The position numbers were made by a program, and so were the translations under genes. Under the pieces are notes generated by a model that ran no database searches, was not told the DNA's origin, and was given only the letters and a program-made list of their open reading frames with translations. A stretch of DNA of 64,000 nucleotides from Campylobacteraceae bacterium (GTDB lineage: Bacteria; Campylobacterota; Campylobacteria; Campylobacterales; Sulfurovaceae). The stretch spans positions 62,001 through 126,000 of the forward strand of contig JALXFN010000074.1 in NCBI GenBank assembly GCA_027068975.1, in the 5' to 3' direction. Positions 52,413 to 64,000 of the stretch are shown piece after piece (the stretch's first letter is position 1; each line of letters opens with the position of its first letter).

Positions 52413-55400
52413 TTAATTCTTCTTCAAAACAACTTTACATAAAGGATGATAATTCTCCTCACTCTTTTCCTTATTATACCATTGCACAACAAACTCAACT
52501 GATATTTTATGAAAGTAAAAATTCTTACTTAGATAAACTTGTACTTTTTCATGAAATGACTTTGACAAGAAACCTATAACTCTGTTTTTGTAAACAATAC
52601 AAAAAGCTTTACTTTTCCCTCTCATCTCAAAATTTACATTCTCTCCTGCTAAAGCAATATTTGAATTATTATGAAATCCAAGTTGTATATCTTTTAATCC
52701 CATAATTAATGTTACCAACTTTTCATTTTGAAAATACTCTTTATCATCAAAAATATATTGGGCATATCCATCTTTATTGAGACGATGAATACCATGTCTT
52801 AAAATAGTCAACTCACTTTTAGCACGTGTCATTCCTACATAATAGAGGCGAATATCGCTATCTTCTTTAGGTGTTTGATTTACAAGTAGAATAACATTCT
52901 CAAACTCCATACCTTTAGATTTGTGTATGGTTGATACAGTTACTGTTTTATGGTACTCTTCAAACTCTTCTAATTTAATTTCATCAAGATAAGCTAACCA
53001 CTGAGAAACATAATAATTCTGACTCTCCAATAAAAATCTATCAATCACTTTTTGCAAAAGTATTAAATTTTTAGAACCTTTAAATCTATTTTCTATAATT
53101 CTCCATGCCTGTTCAAAATTCTCTTCAGTATAAAAAGTATCATGTTTCAATAAGCCATTAATTGTTTTATCAAACTCTATGATTTCAATAACATTTTTAA
53201 GTGCAAAATTTTCTCTTTCTAAGATATATTTAGCTCCTATACCAAGTGTATCTAACTGAGAATAGAGTTGCATAACCTCATCATTTGTATAGGCTAGTAT
53301 TGCAATATTTTTATACTCATCATACTTTTGTACTTTTTGTATAGCTGGGGTAATAAGATTTTTAGAACTACAAGTCTGTACTAAAACTGTACCTTTATCT
53401 TCTGAGTGAGCATGTAAATTATCTTTTTTATATCTATTAGATACTCGTTCTATAAACTCATTAGAATATTTTACTATGTTTTGTTTACTTCTAAAATTTG
53501 TAAGTAACTCATACTGTCTATAGAGGTCTTGCCCATCATCTTCATCTTTTCCAAACTCTTCTGAAAATTTATCTATGAATTTTACATCAGCTCCTGCATG
53601 GGTCATAATACACTGGTCATCATCACCAACAGCAATAATTCTCATCTCTTGATTATTTGCATTATAAATAGCTTTTACAAGTTCAAAACTATCTTCGTTA
53701 ATATCTTGAAACTCATCTAAAACTAAAACCCTCTTATAGGGTAAATGAACATCTCCTTCATTTATCTGTTTTGTTGCTTCAACAATAGACTCTTTCAAAA
53801 TATCTTCATCCTCTTTTACTACTCGTGCAATAAGTTTTAGAGCGTATGAATGAAAGGTATTTATTTCAATATCATAAGAGAGTACACCAATAAGCTGATT
53901 GAGCCTAGACTTAAATTCTCCTGCTGCAGTTCGTGAAAAAGTTAACATCATAAATTGTTCAGGTTTTATATCTTCAGTTAAGATAAGAGAAGCTATTTTG
54001 TGTACCAACACCTTAGTTTTACCAGAGCCTGGACCTGCAAGTATCATCATGGCTTTTGTTTTCTTATCATTTATAATCTCTTTTTGCTCCTCAGACATTT
54101 CAGAGAAAATTTTGTTATATCTTCGTTGTGTTATGGGTCGTGATATCTTCTCTTTTAAGAGGTTATATTTTTTCTTAAACTCTTTATAGGGCAATATAAA
54201 ATAATCTTTTAGAAACATCCCTGCCTTATAATCATCACTTTGTAAACGCTTTGCATACTCTCCCATAATGTGTATTGATTCTATTTTTACTTGGTAGTGT
54301 TTGGCTAATCTATGTTCATACTCTTTAGGTGTATATTTTCGTTTAACCTTTACTTTCTCTTCTTTAGTAATTTGCATTGGAGAGTAAGAGATAAAACGAC
54401 CACCTAACAGCTCTATTACTCTTAAATGGTGCATATATAAAAGTGCTTTATCTATCTCTTTGATTGTATAGTTTTGACCTATATGAGTTCGTAAATGGGT
54501 TAATGAAAAATCTACTTTTTTTTCTCTCTTTTTCTTCTCAAAATTTTCACCAAATAGTTTCAATATCTCATTAGAAATAGTATGTTTACGCCTAATAATA
54601 GTTTCTATTTTCTCTTTATCTATAATTTCAAAATACCATAAATCATTCTGCCTATTAATTCGTTTAAACAAAAACAGAGATTTATCTTTCCAACTGCGTA
54701 TAAGATTTTTAATTAATTCAGATTCATTTTTTTTAATTAAATCCTTTTGATGTAGATGTTCATTTAGCTCTTTAATCGTTATTTGTGATGCATTTGATGT
54801 CTCTAAAAAAGTTAATAGACTTGTTTCAATATTTTGAATGTCTGTAAATTTTTTCATCGATTTTTTTTGAATTAAAAGGCTTAAATCTTTACTCTCACCT
54901 AGCACCTCTATCTCTTTTAATTGCTGTATAGCTAAGGATATGTCTGATTTTTTATAACCTAATAAGTGTGCCAACTCATCTACTTGAACAGCTTTTACTT
55001 TTCCTTGCCCAAGAATAGTTTGTAAAACAAGAATGAGTATTTGCTTCTCTTCATCATTAAAATTTGACTTTTCTAAGAACTTATGCAATTTATCCATACT
55101 GTTTGTAGCAACGGAATCTGCAAAGAAATTTGTTTTGTTTCTTTTCCTAGAGATATACCCCTCTCTTTCCAATTCTAACAAAGCTGTTTTTATTTTTGTT
55201 GAATAATCAGCAGAGTCATCTTCTACATCCCAACCAGCTTCTAATGCTATCTCAAAAGATGTTTTGGTAATAATATCACCCTTAGTTTTCTTCAATACTC
55301 TAAAGATAGAGTTTATTTCACTGGCTGTAATTTTAGAACGATTCAACGATAGAAAGTGTTTATCTAAATCATTTTCATCATAAAGTATGGGACAAAAAGC

Positions 55401-57203
55401 ATTAAGTTTTTCATCTCTAGCACCTCTTCCTGCTTCTTGTGCATAACTCTCTAACGAGTCAGACATCTCATAGTGAATTACATTGGTAATATCAGGCTTA
55501 TCTACACCCATACCAAAAGCTGTAGTTGCTACAATAACATCAATCTCACTAAGTATATAATCTTTGAGAATTTTCATTTTCTCTTGAGACTCTATTTTAG
55601 AGTGAAAAGATTTTACATTTTTATCGGTATCCATAGATAACTGCTCTGCAATCTTATCGCAATCTTTTGTTGAAGAGGGAATGTAAACAAGTGTAGCACC
55701 ATCATGCTCCTTTATTAACTTTAAAAGTTCTATATATTTATTTTTACTTTCGGATGGAATAGACTTATAGTGTAAATTTTTTCTCTCTGGTGTAGCAATA
55801 TATTCAGATAGTTGAATATCTAAACCCTCTAAAAAATATATCTTAATATCATCAATAACACTTGGTTTAGCTGTTGCAGTAAAACAAGAGATAGGTATAT
55901 GGTCTTGAAAATTTTTAACCCTCAATAACTCTTTTACGTAGTCACAGATATAGTAATAGTCTTGCCTAAAGTCATTTCCCCATGTCGATAAACAGTGTGC
56001 TTCATCCACAACAAAACGCTCAATCAATCTATTTTTCAAAATATTAAAAATAGCATTAGAACGTAAAGACTCAGGAGCCAAATATAAAATATCAGCTTCT
56101 CCATTAATGACTTGCTCTATGGCTTCACTTCTCTCCAAAGGACTCATATATCCACTAATTGCCACAGCTTTATAATTGGCTACCTTTTCATTAAAACTTG
56201 TAATATGGTCTTTTATCAATGCTTGTAAAGGTGAGACAACAACTGTCAATGCTTTATATGATTTTGCTTTTATAATTGCAGGAAGCCAAAATGTAAATGT
56301 TTTTCCTCCTCCTGTTGGTAAAACAGCAAGAAAAGATTCATCCCTAAGCGATGCTTCTATAATATCTCGTTGAGTAATTTCTGTCTCCAAGAGTGTAGGA
56401 TTTAACTTTGGAAAAGGTCTAAAAGTTCCAAATCCAAATACCTCTTTAGAGAAGTTACTTAATTCATCTTTTACCTTATCTATATTAAAACACAACTTTT
56501 TTTGTATAGGAACAATGTTACTGTAAGTATGCAGTATCTTTGGTGGATGCGATTTTATTTCAATATGTGGTGTTAGCAAAGCAAGAATATAACCTAATTC
56601 CATAGGATTATCTCTAATCACCTCTAATAGATATTTTTCATCAACAATAACATCTTTATAAAGCTTTAAGATATTATTATAAAGATTCTCCTCTAAATAT
56701 TCAAATGTATGCATCTCTGACATATAAGCAAAAAAACCAGAAAAATATTTTTCATCTTTTAATAAAGAGTAAAAAATATTTTGAGTCATAGTATCTAAAT
56801 CTAAAAATCGTGCTTCTAACTGACTTAATAATCTAGCAGTGATTTTAGAGTCTTCTACAGGGTCATTTTTAAAATCATCTTCACCTTTATAGTTCTTTGG
56901 TAATGCGTGTACGGATTTTTCATTAAACAGTAGTAGTGAAAGAGGTAAAGTATCTATAATTTGATGTGCTTTAAGTGCATGGTAAAGTGTTGTATCTTTT
57001 AATATCTCTAAATCAAAATCTATAAAATTATGCCCACATATATATTTTGCTGAAGTACATAACATCATAAAGTTAGTAGTTTCTTTAATACCTGGAGTAT
57101 TATGCTCCATCTTCTTGTGAACCATACCAAGTTCATATATTTTCTTTGTATTTAGGCTAACTTCTATATCTAAAAAAATTATATTGTCATGATTCTTTTT
57201 CAT
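52413..57203 (-). CDS. DEDD exonuclease - RecQ helicase - UvrD helicase fusion
   Basis: A 1596-residue multidomain protein. Residues 5-135: DEDD-type 3'-5' exonuclease fold (FLDIE 10-14, CGHNFIDFD 56-64, DPVEDSK 114-120). Residues 265-610: RecQ-type superfamily 2 helicase (LPTGGGKT 295-302, DEAH 400-403, SCFTATAK 439-446, QEAGRGARD 589-597). Residues 610-1020: helical/winged-helix linkers. Residues 1030-1520: UvrD-type superfamily 1 helicase (AGPGSGKT 1056-1063, VLDEFQDIN, VGDDDQCI, TIHKSKGMEFENVIL, LYYVGMTRAKSEL). A unique C-terminal end of about 100 residues follows. All three catalytic parts look intact. Operon with the HNH nuclease. Defence or repair role unknown. Confidence 0.88.
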   Translation of the reverse strand: MKKNHDNIIFLDIEVSLNTKKIYELGMVHKKMEHNTPGIKETTNFMMLCTSAKYICGHNFIDFDLEILKDTTLYHALKAHQIIDTLPLSLLLFNEKSVHALPKNYKGEDDFKNDPVEDSKITARLLSQLEARFLDLDTMTQNIFYSLLKDEKYFSGFFAYMSEMHTFEYLEENLYNNILKLYKDVIVDEKYLLEVIRDNPMELGYILALLTPHIEIKSHPPKILHTYSNIVPIQKKLCFNIDKVKDELSNFSKEVFGFGTFRPFPKLNPTLLETEITQRDIIEASLRDESFLAVLPTGGGKTFTFWLPAIIKAKSYKALTVVVSPLQALIKDHITSFNEKVANYKAVAISGYMSPLERSEAIEQVINGEADILYLAPESLRSNAIFNILKNRLIERFVVDEAHCLSTWGNDFRQDYYYICDYVKELLRVKNFQDHIPISCFTATAKPSVIDDIKIYFLEGLDIQLSEYIATPERKNLHYKSIPSESKNKYIELLKLIKEHDGATLVYIPSSTKDCDKIAEQLSMDTDKNVKSFHSKIESQEKMKILKDYILSEIDVIVATTAFGMGVDKPDITNVIHYEMSDSLESYAQEAGRGARDEKLNAFCPILYDENDLDKHFLSLNRSKITASEINSIFRVLKKTKGDIITKTSFEIALEAGWDVEDDSADYSTKIKTALLELEREGYISRKRNKTNFFADSVATNSMDKLHKFLEKSNFNDEEKQILILVLQTILGQGKVKAVQVDELAHLLGYKKSDISLAIQQLKEIEVLGESKDLSLLIQKKSMKKFTDIQNIETSLLTFLETSNASQITIKELNEHLHQKDLIKKNESELIKNLIRSWKDKSLFLFKRINRQNDLWYFEIIDKEKIETIIRRKHTISNEILKLFGENFEKKKREKKVDFSLTHLRTHIGQNYTIKEIDKALLYMHHLRVIELLGGRFISYSPMQITKEEKVKVKRKYTPKEYEHRLAKHYQVKIESIHIMGEYAKRLQSDDYKAGMFLKDYFILPYKEFKKKYNLLKEKISRPITQRRYNKIFSEMSEEQKEIINDKKTKAMMILAGPGSGKTKVLVHKIASLILTEDIKPEQFMMLTFSRTAAGEFKSRLNQLIGVLSYDIEINTFHSYALKLIARVVKEDEDILKESIVEATKQINEGDVHLPYKRVLVLDEFQDINEDSFELVKAIYNANNQEMRIIAVGDDDQCIMTHAGADVKFIDKFSEEFGKDEDDGQDLYRQYELLTNFRSKQNIVKYSNEFIERVSNRYKKDNLHAHSEDKGTVLVQTCSSKNLITPAIQKVQKYDEYKNIAILAYTNDEVMQLYSQLDTLGIGAKYILERENFALKNVIEIIEFDKTINGLLKHDTFYTEENFEQAWRIIENRFKGSKNLILLQKVIDRFLLESQNYYVSQWLAYLDEIKLEEFEEYHKTVTVSTIHKSKGMEFENVILLVNQTPKEDSDIRLYYVGMTRAKSELTILRHGIHRLNKDGYAQYIFDDKEYFQNEKLVTLIMGLKDIQLGFHNNSNIALAGENVNFEMRGKSKAFCIVYKNRVIGFLSKSFHEKVQVYLSKNFYFHKISVEFVVQWYNKEKSEENYHPLCKVVLKKN

Positions 57204-57505: not shown

Positions 57506-57751
57506 TCATTTGAATTGTTGGTCGATAAATCGACAGGTTGACACTTCTATAGCATCCACTCCCCAACACTCTACACCTAAAGTTCTAATATATTTTAAAT
57601 CATGACCCGAACCAAAATCAATATCTAGGACTTTGTAAGATTTTTGGATGTATTTTTTTAAAAGTTTGTTGAGTTGTGGTAGGGTGGCAGAGTTGTATCG
57701 TTCTATTAATTCTTTGTAGTTTTGGTTGTAGTAGGTTTGGGTTTTATTCAT
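57506..57751 (-). pseudogene. N-terminal fragment of a SAM-dependent methyltransferase
   Basis: 81 codons. MNKTQTYYNQNYKELIERYN, YKVLDIDFGSGHDLKYIRTLG (motif I) and VECWGVDAIE (motif II) match the first half of the methyltransferase at 50801. After residue 69 the chain runs into a hairpin element (CRFIDQQFK is encoded by it at 57519-57534) and stops. It is the 5' part of a broken paralogue; the matching 3' end is at 57299-57409. Confidence 0.75.
57519..57534 (-). repeat. short hairpin inside the broken methyltransferase
   Basis: GTCGAT-AA-ATCGAC, 6-bp arms, with flanks TTG and AGG; on the minus strand CTGTCGATTTATCGACC. Related in size to the other hairpins although the GTAGG lead is degraded. 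It supplies the last codons of the truncated methyltransferase. Confidence 0.5.
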
Positions 57752-60661: not shown

Positions 60662-63451
60662 TTATCTTATTTGAAATCTTACTTTTCCTAAGTCATGGCT
60701 CTTTGCATTTTTTCCTCTTTGTCTTCCTAAGGTATTCAGTTGGATAGCTAAAACCCCTTTTTCTAAAAGAAAACGCTCTACACTTTTTGCACGTTTGTAG
60801 GCTATGTCCATTTCACCATGTTTAAAACCATTTAGGTCAGGGTAACCAATAATATCTAGCTTTAGTTTAGATGAATGCTTGAGGGCTTTTACAAGAGGCA
60901 TCAGCTTTTTTCTATGTTTTTTAGAGAGTTGGTATTCATCTTTTTTGAACTCAATTTTACTTAATAGTTTTTGAAGATTTTTATCTATGCTTTGATTGTT
61001 CTCTTGGCTATAAACTAAAAGTTTTTTAATCTCTTTTTTTTGAGGGGACTTAATGTAAATCTTACCCATATCCATAAGGCTCTCTTTCTGTTTCTCATCA
61101 ACAGTAAAGGAGTAGCGAGAGACTCCATTATATTGGCTCTCTTGCATAAAGGAGATGTTGTACTTTCCTATGCCAACATGGTTGATGGTAAAGGCACCTT
61201 GGTCATTGGTAAAGCTGGTACTCTTCTCTCCTGTTTGTAGATTGAAGATTTTAAACGCTTTTCCTGCGAGAGGTTTTTTGCTAATGGCATCATAAAACGC
61301 TCCCTTGACAGAGTAGAAGTTTTGAACATTTATATCCATAACGGAACCACTTTTATAGGTACTGATAAATTTTTCTTGAAACTTTTCAAGGTCAATTCCA
61401 AAATCTAAGTTAGACTCATCTACTACAAATTTTCGCTCTTCATAATCGCTTAGTTCAATGGCAAAACTGTCATAGACAAACTCATCAATATCTTGATAGT
61501 TCTGTATGCCAAGAGGTTTTTTTAGTCGGTCATCACTATCAACAATAACAAAGCTGGAAGTAATAGGCGAAGTGATGGTAGCATGTTCTCCTGCAAAGAC
61601 CATACCTGTCGCAAACTGTAGACCTAAGTTTTGAGCCTCACCATAGTTGTTTTTACTGAGGTTATAGTTACTGTTAACTCTAAACTTTTCGTTGTTAATG
61701 TCTGCTCTTAGGTTGTAGTTATCGCGTTGTTGACTCTTTTCTGCAATGAACTCACTGTTAAATCCATAGCGTTGAGATGAGTGATACTTTAGGTTAAGTT
61801 GTTCTTTCTCTTCACTAATGTAGTTGGCATAACGGGAGCTATATTCACCAAATCTATAGTCAAGCGTGAAAGAGAGTTTTCTCTGGGTGTCACTATCTAT
61901 TTGTTGTTGCTCAAAGCTAAACTCTGTTGAGAGAGCAGCAAAGTTTTTTCGTAGAACAAGGGCTTGGTTTTGCTCTCTCTTCTCTCCCTCTTTATACGAG
62001 GAGAGTGAGAGTCCCATGTTAACACCTTGACCGAGCATATAGTAGAAGTTTCCTCTGTAGAGTTGGCTATCTTTCCCCACTAGGTTACTGGAGGTTTTAA
62101 AGTTACTGTCACTCTCTTCATAAAGTAGATTCATGTGTAGCTCTTTAATGTTACTTTTATACTCTAAACCTCTTTTGTAACCCCAAGTATCATTACTTTT
62201 ATTGGCTACAACATAAGGGTTAAACAGTCCATAATTGGTACCAATAAGGAGTTCAATGTCTGTTGATAAAACATTGTTCCCACTTTGAAAACCACCCTCA
62301 ATGGTTATGTCATCTAATAATCCATACTCAATATAGGCTGAAGTAAGTTGGTTGTTCTTGTCATAGTTTAAGCCTTCTGAGCCATCATCTGAGGCTATTC
62401 CAATACCTCCACCATAGGTGAGTAAGCCTTTTTTTAAAACTTCAGAGTAGGAGAAGTCATTGAACTCTATGTACTCTATTTTCCCTCCCTCTTCGATGAC
62501 TTTGAGTTTGACGTGGTTGAGACCACTAGGAAGGTTGAGGTCGAAAAGGTTGTGGGTTCCAGCCAAGAGGTTGAGACTGTTTCTGTAACGGTTGTTGACA
62601 TATATCTCTACTTTACTACGCTTTTGAATAAAAAACTCATGGGAGTTAACGCGGGTGGTGTTTTGGTTATAACTGCTACCAAGGTTAAAGTTTTTTTCAA
62701 CAGCGACACCTAAAGCATTGAGGTAGGTAAGTCGGTTATGTGTGGGTAGGGCGATGTCGCCTAGTTGATAACGCAAGAGATTCTCTCCATCATCTTTCAC
62801 TACTCGAAAAGCTCCTCTGTTTAACTTAGCTTTCTCTTGCATGTAGTAGAGTTCTCCTTCGAGAATAAAATCATCAACATTTAAAAAGATATCAGAAGAG
62901 AGATTAATAGAACTTTTTTGAAAGTTATCACCACTGTTTTTGTTATACTGCTGATTCATATAGAGGTTGATACCTCCTGAGTAGCGTTCTGGAAGTGTTG
63001 AACCATTTGTATCTCTTTTTCTCTTGGGTGAAAAGTTAATGGTAGAAGCCTTTTTTAATGCTGCAGGTAAGGTAATGTTGAGCAGAATATTTTTACTGTC
63101 ATAAGAAGCCTTAATCCCTAAAATCTCTAACTCTTTTAGTTCTGTAAAGCCTTTTTTATCTACAGTGGGTTTAAATTTTTTTCGATAAGACTCTTTCATG
63201 AGTGAACGTAGATACTCTATGGTCTCCTGATTGACAAATAGATGCTCCTGTTTATCTATTTTTACAAAAACTTCATCTTGTAGTATATTGTTTACCTTTA
63301 AAGGCAGATAGATAGATTTGGCTTGGCTCTTTTTTTTTGAACTTTTGGCTGCAAGTTTTGATTGTAAGAGTTTCATCTTCTCCTCCATGCTCATTTTAGC
63401 TAAGAGAGGTTGGCTAAATAGTATCAAGAGAAGAAATGAAATGGCTTTCAT
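60662..63451 (-). CDS. chaperone-usher-type outer membrane usher fused to an OmpA-like domain
   Basis: A 929-residue exported protein. Signal peptide 1-18. Residues 45-120 look like an N-terminal usher domain; residues 150-650 form a long beta-barrel with many alternating strands (YSGGINLYMNQQYN, LLTYGGGIGIASDDG, LLDDITIEGGFQSGNN, RKLSFTLDYRFGEYSSRY). A plug-like region lies inside (SKVEIYVNNRYRNSLNLLAGTHN and LFDLNLPSGLNHVKLKV). Residues 715-790 are a carboxypeptidase-regulatory-like Ig module (VKGAFYDAISKKPLAGKAF). The last 100 residues are OmpA-like (LKLDIIGYPDLNGFKHGEMDIAYKRA). Ushers rarely end this way. Confidence 0.7.
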   Translation of the reverse strand: MKAISFLLLILFSQPLLAKMSMEEKMKLLQSKLAAKSSKKKSQAKSIYLPLKVNNILQDEVFVKIDKQEHLFVNQETIEYLRSLMKESYRKKFKPTVDKKGFTELKELEILGIKASYDSKNILLNITLPAALKKASTINFSPKRKRDTNGSTLPERYSGGINLYMNQQYNKNSGDNFQKSSINLSSDIFLNVDDFILEGELYYMQEKAKLNRGAFRVVKDDGENLLRYQLGDIALPTHNRLTYLNALGVAVEKNFNLGSSYNQNTTRVNSHEFFIQKRSKVEIYVNNRYRNSLNLLAGTHNLFDLNLPSGLNHVKLKVIEEGGKIEYIEFNDFSYSEVLKKGLLTYGGGIGIASDDGSEGLNYDKNNQLTSAYIEYGLLDDITIEGGFQSGNNVLSTDIELLIGTNYGLFNPYVVANKSNDTWGYKRGLEYKSNIKELHMNLLYEESDSNFKTSSNLVGKDSQLYRGNFYYMLGQGVNMGLSLSSYKEGEKREQNQALVLRKNFAALSTEFSFEQQQIDSDTQRKLSFTLDYRFGEYSSRYANYISEEKEQLNLKYHSSQRYGFNSEFIAEKSQQRDNYNLRADINNEKFRVNSNYNLSKNNYGEAQNLGLQFATGMVFAGEHATITSPITSSFVIVDSDDRLKKPLGIQNYQDIDEFVYDSFAIELSDYEERKFVVDESNLDFGIDLEKFQEKFISTYKSGSVMDINVQNFYSVKGAFYDAISKKPLAGKAFKIFNLQTGEKSTSFTNDQGAFTINHVGIGKYNISFMQESQYNGVSRYSFTVDEKQKESLMDMGKIYIKSPQKKEIKKLLVYSQENNQSIDKNLQKLLSKIEFKKDEYQLSKKHRKKLMPLVKALKHSSKLKLDIIGYPDLNGFKHGEMDIAYKRAKSVERFLLEKGVLAIQLNTLGRQRGKNAKSHDLGKVRFQIR

Positions 63452-64000
63452 TTAGTTGGCACTAACGGTTACTTGTATAACAGCTTTATAGTCACCAGCA
63501 ATGAGGTTGCCTCTTAACTTCTCTGTTTCAAACTTCATGCTACCTACTTTACTACCATTGTTCTTACCTACTATGAGAGTGAAAGGCTCTGAATTAAGAA
63601 TCTCTTGCTCTGCTTCTCCATCTTTTTGGTAGAAGTATTTCATTGGAATCTGATAATTAGAATCAATTTGACTAATAAGAGGAGAAGTGTTAAATGAGAT
63701 TTGACAAGCACCTGTGGTATTATTTTTTACGTAAATATCTCTGATTTGACGGTTAATGGTATTAAAGTTAATGAGACCATAATTGATAGAGGCATCTTTA
63801 AAGAGTTGTTGACTGCTGTAGTTTGAGACATCTTCAAAGCCTACAATGGTTACTTGCTCTACTTCTCCTGTAGCTGTTATGGTTGAAGATGAGGTATAGT
63901 TTCTGCCTACTTTTGCCTGTATGTATTTTTTAAGTTGATAGCTTCCTGCTGTTTGTATGTCGGAGAGGTTATCAACTTTAATACGAATCTGAGCAATAAG
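63452..64000 (-). CDS. fimbrial-subunit-like protein (C-terminal 182 residues, cut by window edge)
   Basis: The frame is open from the stop at 63452 to the window end. The visible chain includes IAQIRIKVDNLSDIQTAGSY, a Thr/Ser-rich middle (YTSSSTITATGE), GACQISFNTSPLISQ and a closing strand LIAGDYKAVIQVTVSAN. The alternating strands and the terminal beta strand with small residues are typical of CS1/alternate chaperone-usher pilins. It stops one base before the usher start, so the two form one operon. The true start and signal peptide lie beyond the window. Confidence 0.55.
   Translation of the reverse strand, partial: LIAQIRIKVDNLSDIQTAGSYQLKKYIQAKVGRNYTSSSTITATGEVEQVTIVGFEDVSNYSSQQLFKDASINYGLINFNTINRQIRDIYVKNNTTGACQISFNTSPLISQIDSNYQIPMKYFYQKDGEAEQEILNSEPFTLIVGKNNGSKVGSMKFETEKLRGNLIAGDYKAVIQVTVSAN

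Follow-up and report, generated by a model that had tools for sequence, protein, structure and literature searches.

Outer-membrane pili have their base in a fluid membrane, and how they withstand pull is still an unsolved problem of mechanics. For autotransporters there is a two-protein answer: the barrel of AtaA, a fibre adhesin of the trimeric autotransporter type, is backed by the peptidoglycan-binding protein TpgA, and in simulations the binding of the TpgA N-terminal domain approximately doubled the force needed to extract the AtaA barrel (PMC13082670). In the OmpA of A. baumannii (AbOmpA), residues D271 and R286 are required for diaminopimelate binding, according to PMC6572160. Among pili secreted by ushers, one proline is invariant in all PapD-type chaperones, and Arg89 of CsuC is confined to those of archaic and alternative systems, according to PMC4654587. 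Here, we describe an usher gene at the end of a 64,000-nucleotide stretch from a Campylobacteraceae bacterium (the window, G000:C74:62001-126000, in a contig that extends further), the product of which continues into an OmpA-like domain. The system is likely to be a non-classical pilus assembly platform whose periplasmic C terminus gained a domain of the OmpA/Pal type, the most likely role of which is to tether the usher to peptidoglycan.

An usher extended by an OmpA-like domain

The fusion gene and the parts of its product were placed as follows.

Window 60662-63451, minus strand: usher-OmpA fusion protein, 929 amino acids, frame intact (open reading frame; tblastn to annotated ushers; Pfam OmpA, CarboxypepD_reg and TcfC; homologues)
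Window 63398-63451, minus strand: signal-peptide-like N terminus, residues 1-18 (sequence read by eye)
Window 63047-63397, minus strand: usher N-terminal domain (NTD), about residues 19-135 (alignment to the N-terminal parts of annotated ushers; boundaries by eye)
Window 61340-62899, minus strand: usher barrel, plug and first C-terminal domain (CTD1), about residues 185-704 (alignment to PF00577 matches of unfused relatives)
Window 62474-62635, minus strand: plug/E-set part, residues 273-326 (PF16967 TcfC E-set match; Caf1A 3fcg profile match)
Window 61049-61309, minus strand: second usher C-terminal domain (CTD2), about residues 715-801 (positions of PapC_C in L021 and CarboxypepD_reg in L015)
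Window 60959-61048, minus strand: linker, about residues 802-831 (starting at the end point of eight unfused ushers)
Window 60665-60958, minus strand: OmpA-like domain, residues 832-929, with the putative ligand pair D872 and R887 (PF00691; solved OmpA/Pal homologues)

Three genomes, all of one genus, carry the fusion in intact form: the window genome (G000), G164 (97% identity, locus L002) and G170 (54-55% identity). In an alignment with unfused relatives (A7), the PapC_C match of L021, which marks CTD2, fell on window residues 718-786 and the CarboxypepD_reg match of L015 on residues 714-788, while the PF00577 matches of five relatives stopped at residues 689-704. All eight unfused ushers in this alignment terminated at residues 799-805, and the OmpA domain is therefore an addition past the normal usher end. 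From these matches and end points it follows that no part of an usher is missing (NTD, barrel, plug, CTD1, CTD2) and that the linker and the OmpA domain are extra, which rules out that the OmpA domain took the place of a C-terminal usher domain. The initial annotation had set this protein apart from classical ushers, which end in two Ig-like domains; the contrast does not hold, as both domains are present and the OmpA domain follows them. The regulatory-like Ig module that it had reported was indeed found at residues 715-791, but by the PapC_C position it is the ordinary last usher domain, CTD2.

Identity of the barrel

By tblastn, the part of the protein free of OmpA (residues 1-812) matched seven plasmid records, the best in Leptolyngbya (E = 4e-23); a match in Vibrio (E = 1e-17) extended across 92% of the query. 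Four of the seven relatives are annotated as fimbria or pilus ushers and three places carry no annotation. Pfam called PF00577 in every one of them, with six scores above the cut-off and the seventh slightly short of it (26.9 versus 27.1), and gave no OmpA (PF00691) in any. In the window protein, the TcfC E-set PF16967 (residues 273-323, E = 0.00072), CarboxypepD_reg (residues 715-791, E = 4e-5) and SpaA (residues 720-789) were each matched under the Pfam cut-off. A profile of eight ushers (A4) matched FimD, and where the plug lies it also matched the entry 3fcg, a domain of Caf1A (E = 0.013); since the profile includes the named plasmid ushers, these matches are not independent of them.

PF00577 itself had no Pfam match in the window protein, the window genome or the G170 protein, as would also be expected if the barrel were that of another outer-membrane protein with an OmpA tail, brought by chance beside its neighbours. 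Such an origin is very improbable in view of the tblastn alignments to annotated ushers over most of the OmpA-free query, the chaperone and pilin-like genes that accompany the gene in conserved order in three genomes, and the plug and CTD2, whose positions correspond to those of ushers. The assignment of the product to the outer-membrane ushers of chaperone-usher systems is secure on these comparisons, and it was sequence, not structure, that settled the question of a non-usher barrel.

The OmpA-like domain

PF00691 matched residues 835-925 of the window protein with E = 1.2e-10 (42.1 bits against a cut-off of 27.2) and the G170 homologue with E = 4.1e-23 (82 bits). The 929-residue chain with usher barrel, plug-like part and OmpA-like C terminus described in the initial annotation is thus borne out by the open reading frame, this match and the tblastn alignments, although for the last 100 residues the answer comes from PF00691 and not from a structure. 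Compared with solved structures, the G170 copy matched PA0833 most closely (E = 1.8e-16) and also YiaD and Pal, and the window copy was weaker (PA0833, E = 7.2e-6). D872 and R887 of the window copy have the spacing of 15 that separates D271 and R286 in AbOmpA, and the same spacing is found in G170. By sequence, the G170 copy is canonical and the window copy is degenerate outside the ligand pair. Among the other OmpA-domain proteins of the window genome none was more than 29% identical to the window domain; eight of the ten were aligned by motif, L036 and L041 being left out because the motif pattern missed both.

Between the window and G164, dN/dS was 0.13 for the whole gene and 0.12 for its OmpA part, the latter value from 6 synonymous and 3 non-synonymous changes; this suggests, on little data, that the OmpA part is under constraint. 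This bears on whether the tail might be a decaying, selectively neutral fusion with no present function in this lineage. Its degenerate motif, its 38% identity to G170 and the fact that the three intact fusions known all belong to one genus would agree with such decay. The low dN/dS would not, nor would a frame that has stayed open and free of stops in three genomes despite up to 46% divergence, and neutral decay is accordingly regarded as quite unlikely.

A functional domain might still bear no load. It could position or stabilise the usher (by helping it fold, by setting the spacing beneath the pore or by fixing it locally close to the wall), or it could chiefly bind another periplasmic protein, as OmpA-like domains are able to do (Pal-TolB, for example; YfiB-YfiR was among the Foldseek matches of the C-terminal model). 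Such a role would fit the quicker evolution of the OmpA part relative to the usher and the loss of motif positions from it in the window lineage. The Asp/Arg ligand pair, however, has been kept in both lineages, and the nearest relatives of the canonical G170 domain are the peptidoglycan-binding PA0833 domain and Pal. A role free of load is therefore the less likely reading, and a peptidoglycan anchor through the OmpA domain remains the likely function.

The operon and its chaperone

The usher gene is the last of a five-gene operon on one strand, which extends past the window edge. Genes beyond that edge are given in coordinates of L001, to which 56000 is added to obtain window coordinates.

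L001:9823-10344, minus strand: pilin-like gene, 173 amino acids (open reading frame, first in the operon)
L001:9256-9762/9792, minus strand: pilin-like gene, 168/178 amino acids (open reading frame)
L001:8441-9160, minus strand: PapD-type chaperone, 239 amino acids (PF00345, E = 1.7e-7)
Window 63452-64000, in full L001:7452-8375, minus strand: two-domain pilin-like (tip-like) protein, 307 amino acids, C-terminal 182 residues inside the window (open reading frame; second half homologous to the 168-residue pilin)

The stop codon of the 307-residue gene lies immediately before the usher ATG, and alaS begins 68 bases downstream of the usher gene. The pilin-like gene reported beside the usher is therefore the one directly upstream, cut by the window edge, and the chaperone gene that had been sought was found about 0.44 kb beyond it. 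A promoter-like site with 11 of 12 matches is located upstream of the first pilin-like gene; the whole scan gave 22 sites against a shuffle mean of 20.7, and so no excess over shuffled sequence. A hairpin of 9 pairs (L001:8405-8427) between the chaperone and two-domain subunit genes was flagged as terminator-like on the plus strand only, and may have a role in uneven expression. An L,D-transpeptidase gene (YkuD; L001:10651-11457, minus strand) precedes the first pilin-like gene by 306 bases and occurs also in G164. It was set aside as an attachment factor and is treated as a neighbour only, because it was not among the open reading frames listed beside the G170 operon.

The PF00345 chaperone was the only one found in the window genome. 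Alone it matched CfaA and 4ncd weakly; a profile of seven related chaperones matched CsuC (E = 1.2e-13), which scored above CfaA, and also 4ncd. With the CsuC positions counted by hand, Pro59 and Arg89 aligned to P75 and R105 of the window chaperone. The proline was present in all seven aligned chaperones and the arginine in six, L019 having a tyrosine. The presence of P75 and R105 places the system, by sequence, among those of non-classical (archaic or alternative) type. Bearing on the sigma and alpha clades are the higher score of CsuC than of CfaA with the chaperone profile and a weak TcfC match of the usher.

The second half of the 307-residue protein was 29% identical to the 168-residue pilin-like protein over 154 residues (E = 3e-8, as a single comparison), and two further pairwise comparisons among the subunits gave E = 2e-6 and 7e-9. 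All nine aligned subunit sequences share a C-terminal A-x-x-Y near the end, with A159, Y162 and V168 invariant in the numbering of the first sequence. A pilin profile searched against the PDB gave at best E = 0.051, to a maltose-binding-protein fusion, and this was read as chance. The term pilin-like is used here on the grounds of the C-terminal pattern, the position of the genes and their context. Of these subunits, the two-domain one probably forms the tip.

Conservation and distribution

G000, G164 and G170 have the five genes in one order (pilin, pilin, chaperone, two-domain protein, usher); alaS lies downstream in G000 and G164, whereas the flanking genes differ in G170. A fourth copy, in G165, ends with its contig at residue 471 and is for that reason uninformative on the OmpA part. 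The family search found the usher in 4 of 175 genomes, and the other three listed matched through the OmpA part only. With a wider profile, matches were obtained in 4 of the 34 genomes of the genus and in 7 of the 175 of the family, three of the seven being weak; those in G109, G116 and G132 were rejected as ushers for want of a Pfam usher match. Matches in G147, G166 and G044 and a second one in G164 covered the OmpA part only and are not fusions, and the open reading frames behind TcfC matches in G064 and G447 encode other Ig-rich proteins.

Chaperone-usher systems had been called atypical of this phylum, and the searches agree: of 397 Campylobacterota genomes, profile A7 detected ushers in 5 (G000, G186, G233, G443 and G460) and the narrower profile A2 in 2, while the chaperone profile matched 2 of 377 genomes (G170 and G186) in the phylum search. 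The ushers of G186, G233, G443 and G460 have frames of 769-795 amino acids that end at CTD2 without OmpA, as judged by Pfam for three and, for G460, by its C-terminal sequence, which is nearly identical to that of G443. In G186, of another Campylobacterota family, a complete short operon of pilin, chaperone and a 765-residue usher without OmpA is found at L025:3130-6704. In two genomes of the window genome's own family, the proteins at L046:646-3129 (828 amino acids) and L048:442-2766 (775 amino acids) matched the usher profile weakly and had no Pfam usher match; the L046 protein has a CarboxypepD-like end.

A plasmid search with the full G170 protein returned 559 records, and among the 30 listed most were OmpA alone. 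The sole place covering 80% was an usher without OmpA. For other phyla the search says little, since a fusion of divergent sequence might escape it. By these sequence searches the fusion is so far confined to one genus.

Other features of the window

Two further genes were noted. At window 52413-57203 (minus strand), an open reading frame of 1596 amino acids appears by eye to start like an exonuclease and to continue into two helicase-like parts, one resembling RecQ and the other UvrD. At window 57506-57751 (minus strand) lies a methyltransferase-like remnant of 81 amino acids; the version in L002 (13530-14144) has 204 amino acids, and the window copy looks truncated.

Proposed mechanism

The sequences establish the gene, its domains and operon, their conservation and the preserved ligand pair; that a pilus is secreted, that peptidoglycan is bound and that load is borne are inferences, set out below. 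By homology, the pilin-like subunits would be exported by Sec, held by the PapD-type chaperone and passed to the usher NTD; they would then be linked into a chain through donor-strand exchange and secreted via the plugged barrel, with CTD1 and CTD2 holding the base of the growing fibre. The C-terminal domains of known ushers lie in the periplasm. With CTD2 there, the OmpA domain that follows it would sit where the peptidoglycan is, its reach given by the linker of about 30 residues. Its part would be mechanical, passing the load of the fibre to peptidoglycan, so that the fluid outer membrane would not carry it alone. By analogy, a load-bearing role is plausible. That the secretion platform is itself built into the wall, with the usher's own OmpA-like domain gripping peptidoglycan and the wall taking the pull of the fibre, is a fuller claim, which we place just on the probable side.

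Several observations weigh against this interpretation, the silence of PF00577 among them. The window copy of the OmpA domain has YPD where HTD is expected, lacks the NRR-type motif and misses 8 residues before the last strand; the G164 copy likewise has YPD and no end motif, while G170 has HTD and NRW. Identity between window and G170 falls to 38% in the OmpA domain, compared with 58% in the NTD, 57% in the barrel and 59% in CTD2 (the linker has 36% over residues 804-831). In such a degenerate domain, wall binding may be weakened or lost. A fixed tether to the wall might also hinder the domain movements of subunit hand-over. None of the Pfam pilin families, the known archaic and alternative ones included, matched the subunits. 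The structure predictions were of low confidence: the full-length AlphaFold model, built from three sequences, had a mean pLDDT of 33.9 and the C-terminal model one of 42.9. In the full-length model, helices and strands follow one another in OmpA-like order over the final 100 residues, at pLDDT values reaching about 75, which is no more than suggestive; the NTD has an alpha/beta pattern at pLDDT of about 60. Pal and OmpA domains headed the Foldseek list for the C-terminal model at E of 0.06 or worse, with no match at E ≤ 0.001, and this was not used as proof.

Of the chaperone-usher branch anchored in peptidoglycan that was originally proposed, the system and its OmpA-type domain stand on sequence, operon and three genomes; the anchoring stays putative, the Asp/Arg pair being kept and other motif positions lost. 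Neither a stalk nor a short fibre receives particular support.

Comparison with known systems

In literature listings limited to open-licence PMC papers no usher-OmpA fusion was found; the accessible text of PMC4827864 mentions fusions of outer-membrane proteins, none of them of usher and OmpA. A wall-anchored usher would apparently be an undescribed variation on a well-known machine, and with this locus the phylum, in which chaperone-usher systems are rare, gains a complete pilus operon. With archaic sigma and alternative alpha systems (Csu of Acinetobacter, CFA/I and ECP of E. coli) it shares a PapD-type chaperone with the proline and arginine, an usher with plug, CTD1 and CTD2, pilin-type subunits and a two-domain tip-like subunit. 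It differs from them in the OmpA-like domain past CTD2, in pilins outside the Pfam families and in a host phylum poor in ushers. The ushers of G186, G233, G443 and G460 are of the same phylum and of the chaperone-usher type, but stop at CTD2.

The domain itself belongs to the same sequence family (PF00691) as those of OmpA, Pal, YiaD and PA0833 and has the Asp/Arg pair at the same spacing, whereas the window copy is shorter and has lost the HTD and NRR-type positions. Known domains of this family are carried by an 8-strand barrel, a lipoprotein or a motor protein; this one is carried by an usher.

The same working principle is proposed here as for TpgA and AtaA, where the outer-membrane barrel of a fibre is likewise backed by a peptidoglycan-binding OmpA-type domain. 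There, the anchor TpgA is a periplasmic protein in its own right and the fibre protein AtaA is an autotransporter, whereas the domain in the window is fused to an usher. The fusion would place the anchor in the chain of the secretion pore, so that the question of the anchor can be reduced to one domain or two residues, and a single polypeptide would do the work that is shared between AtaA and TpgA.

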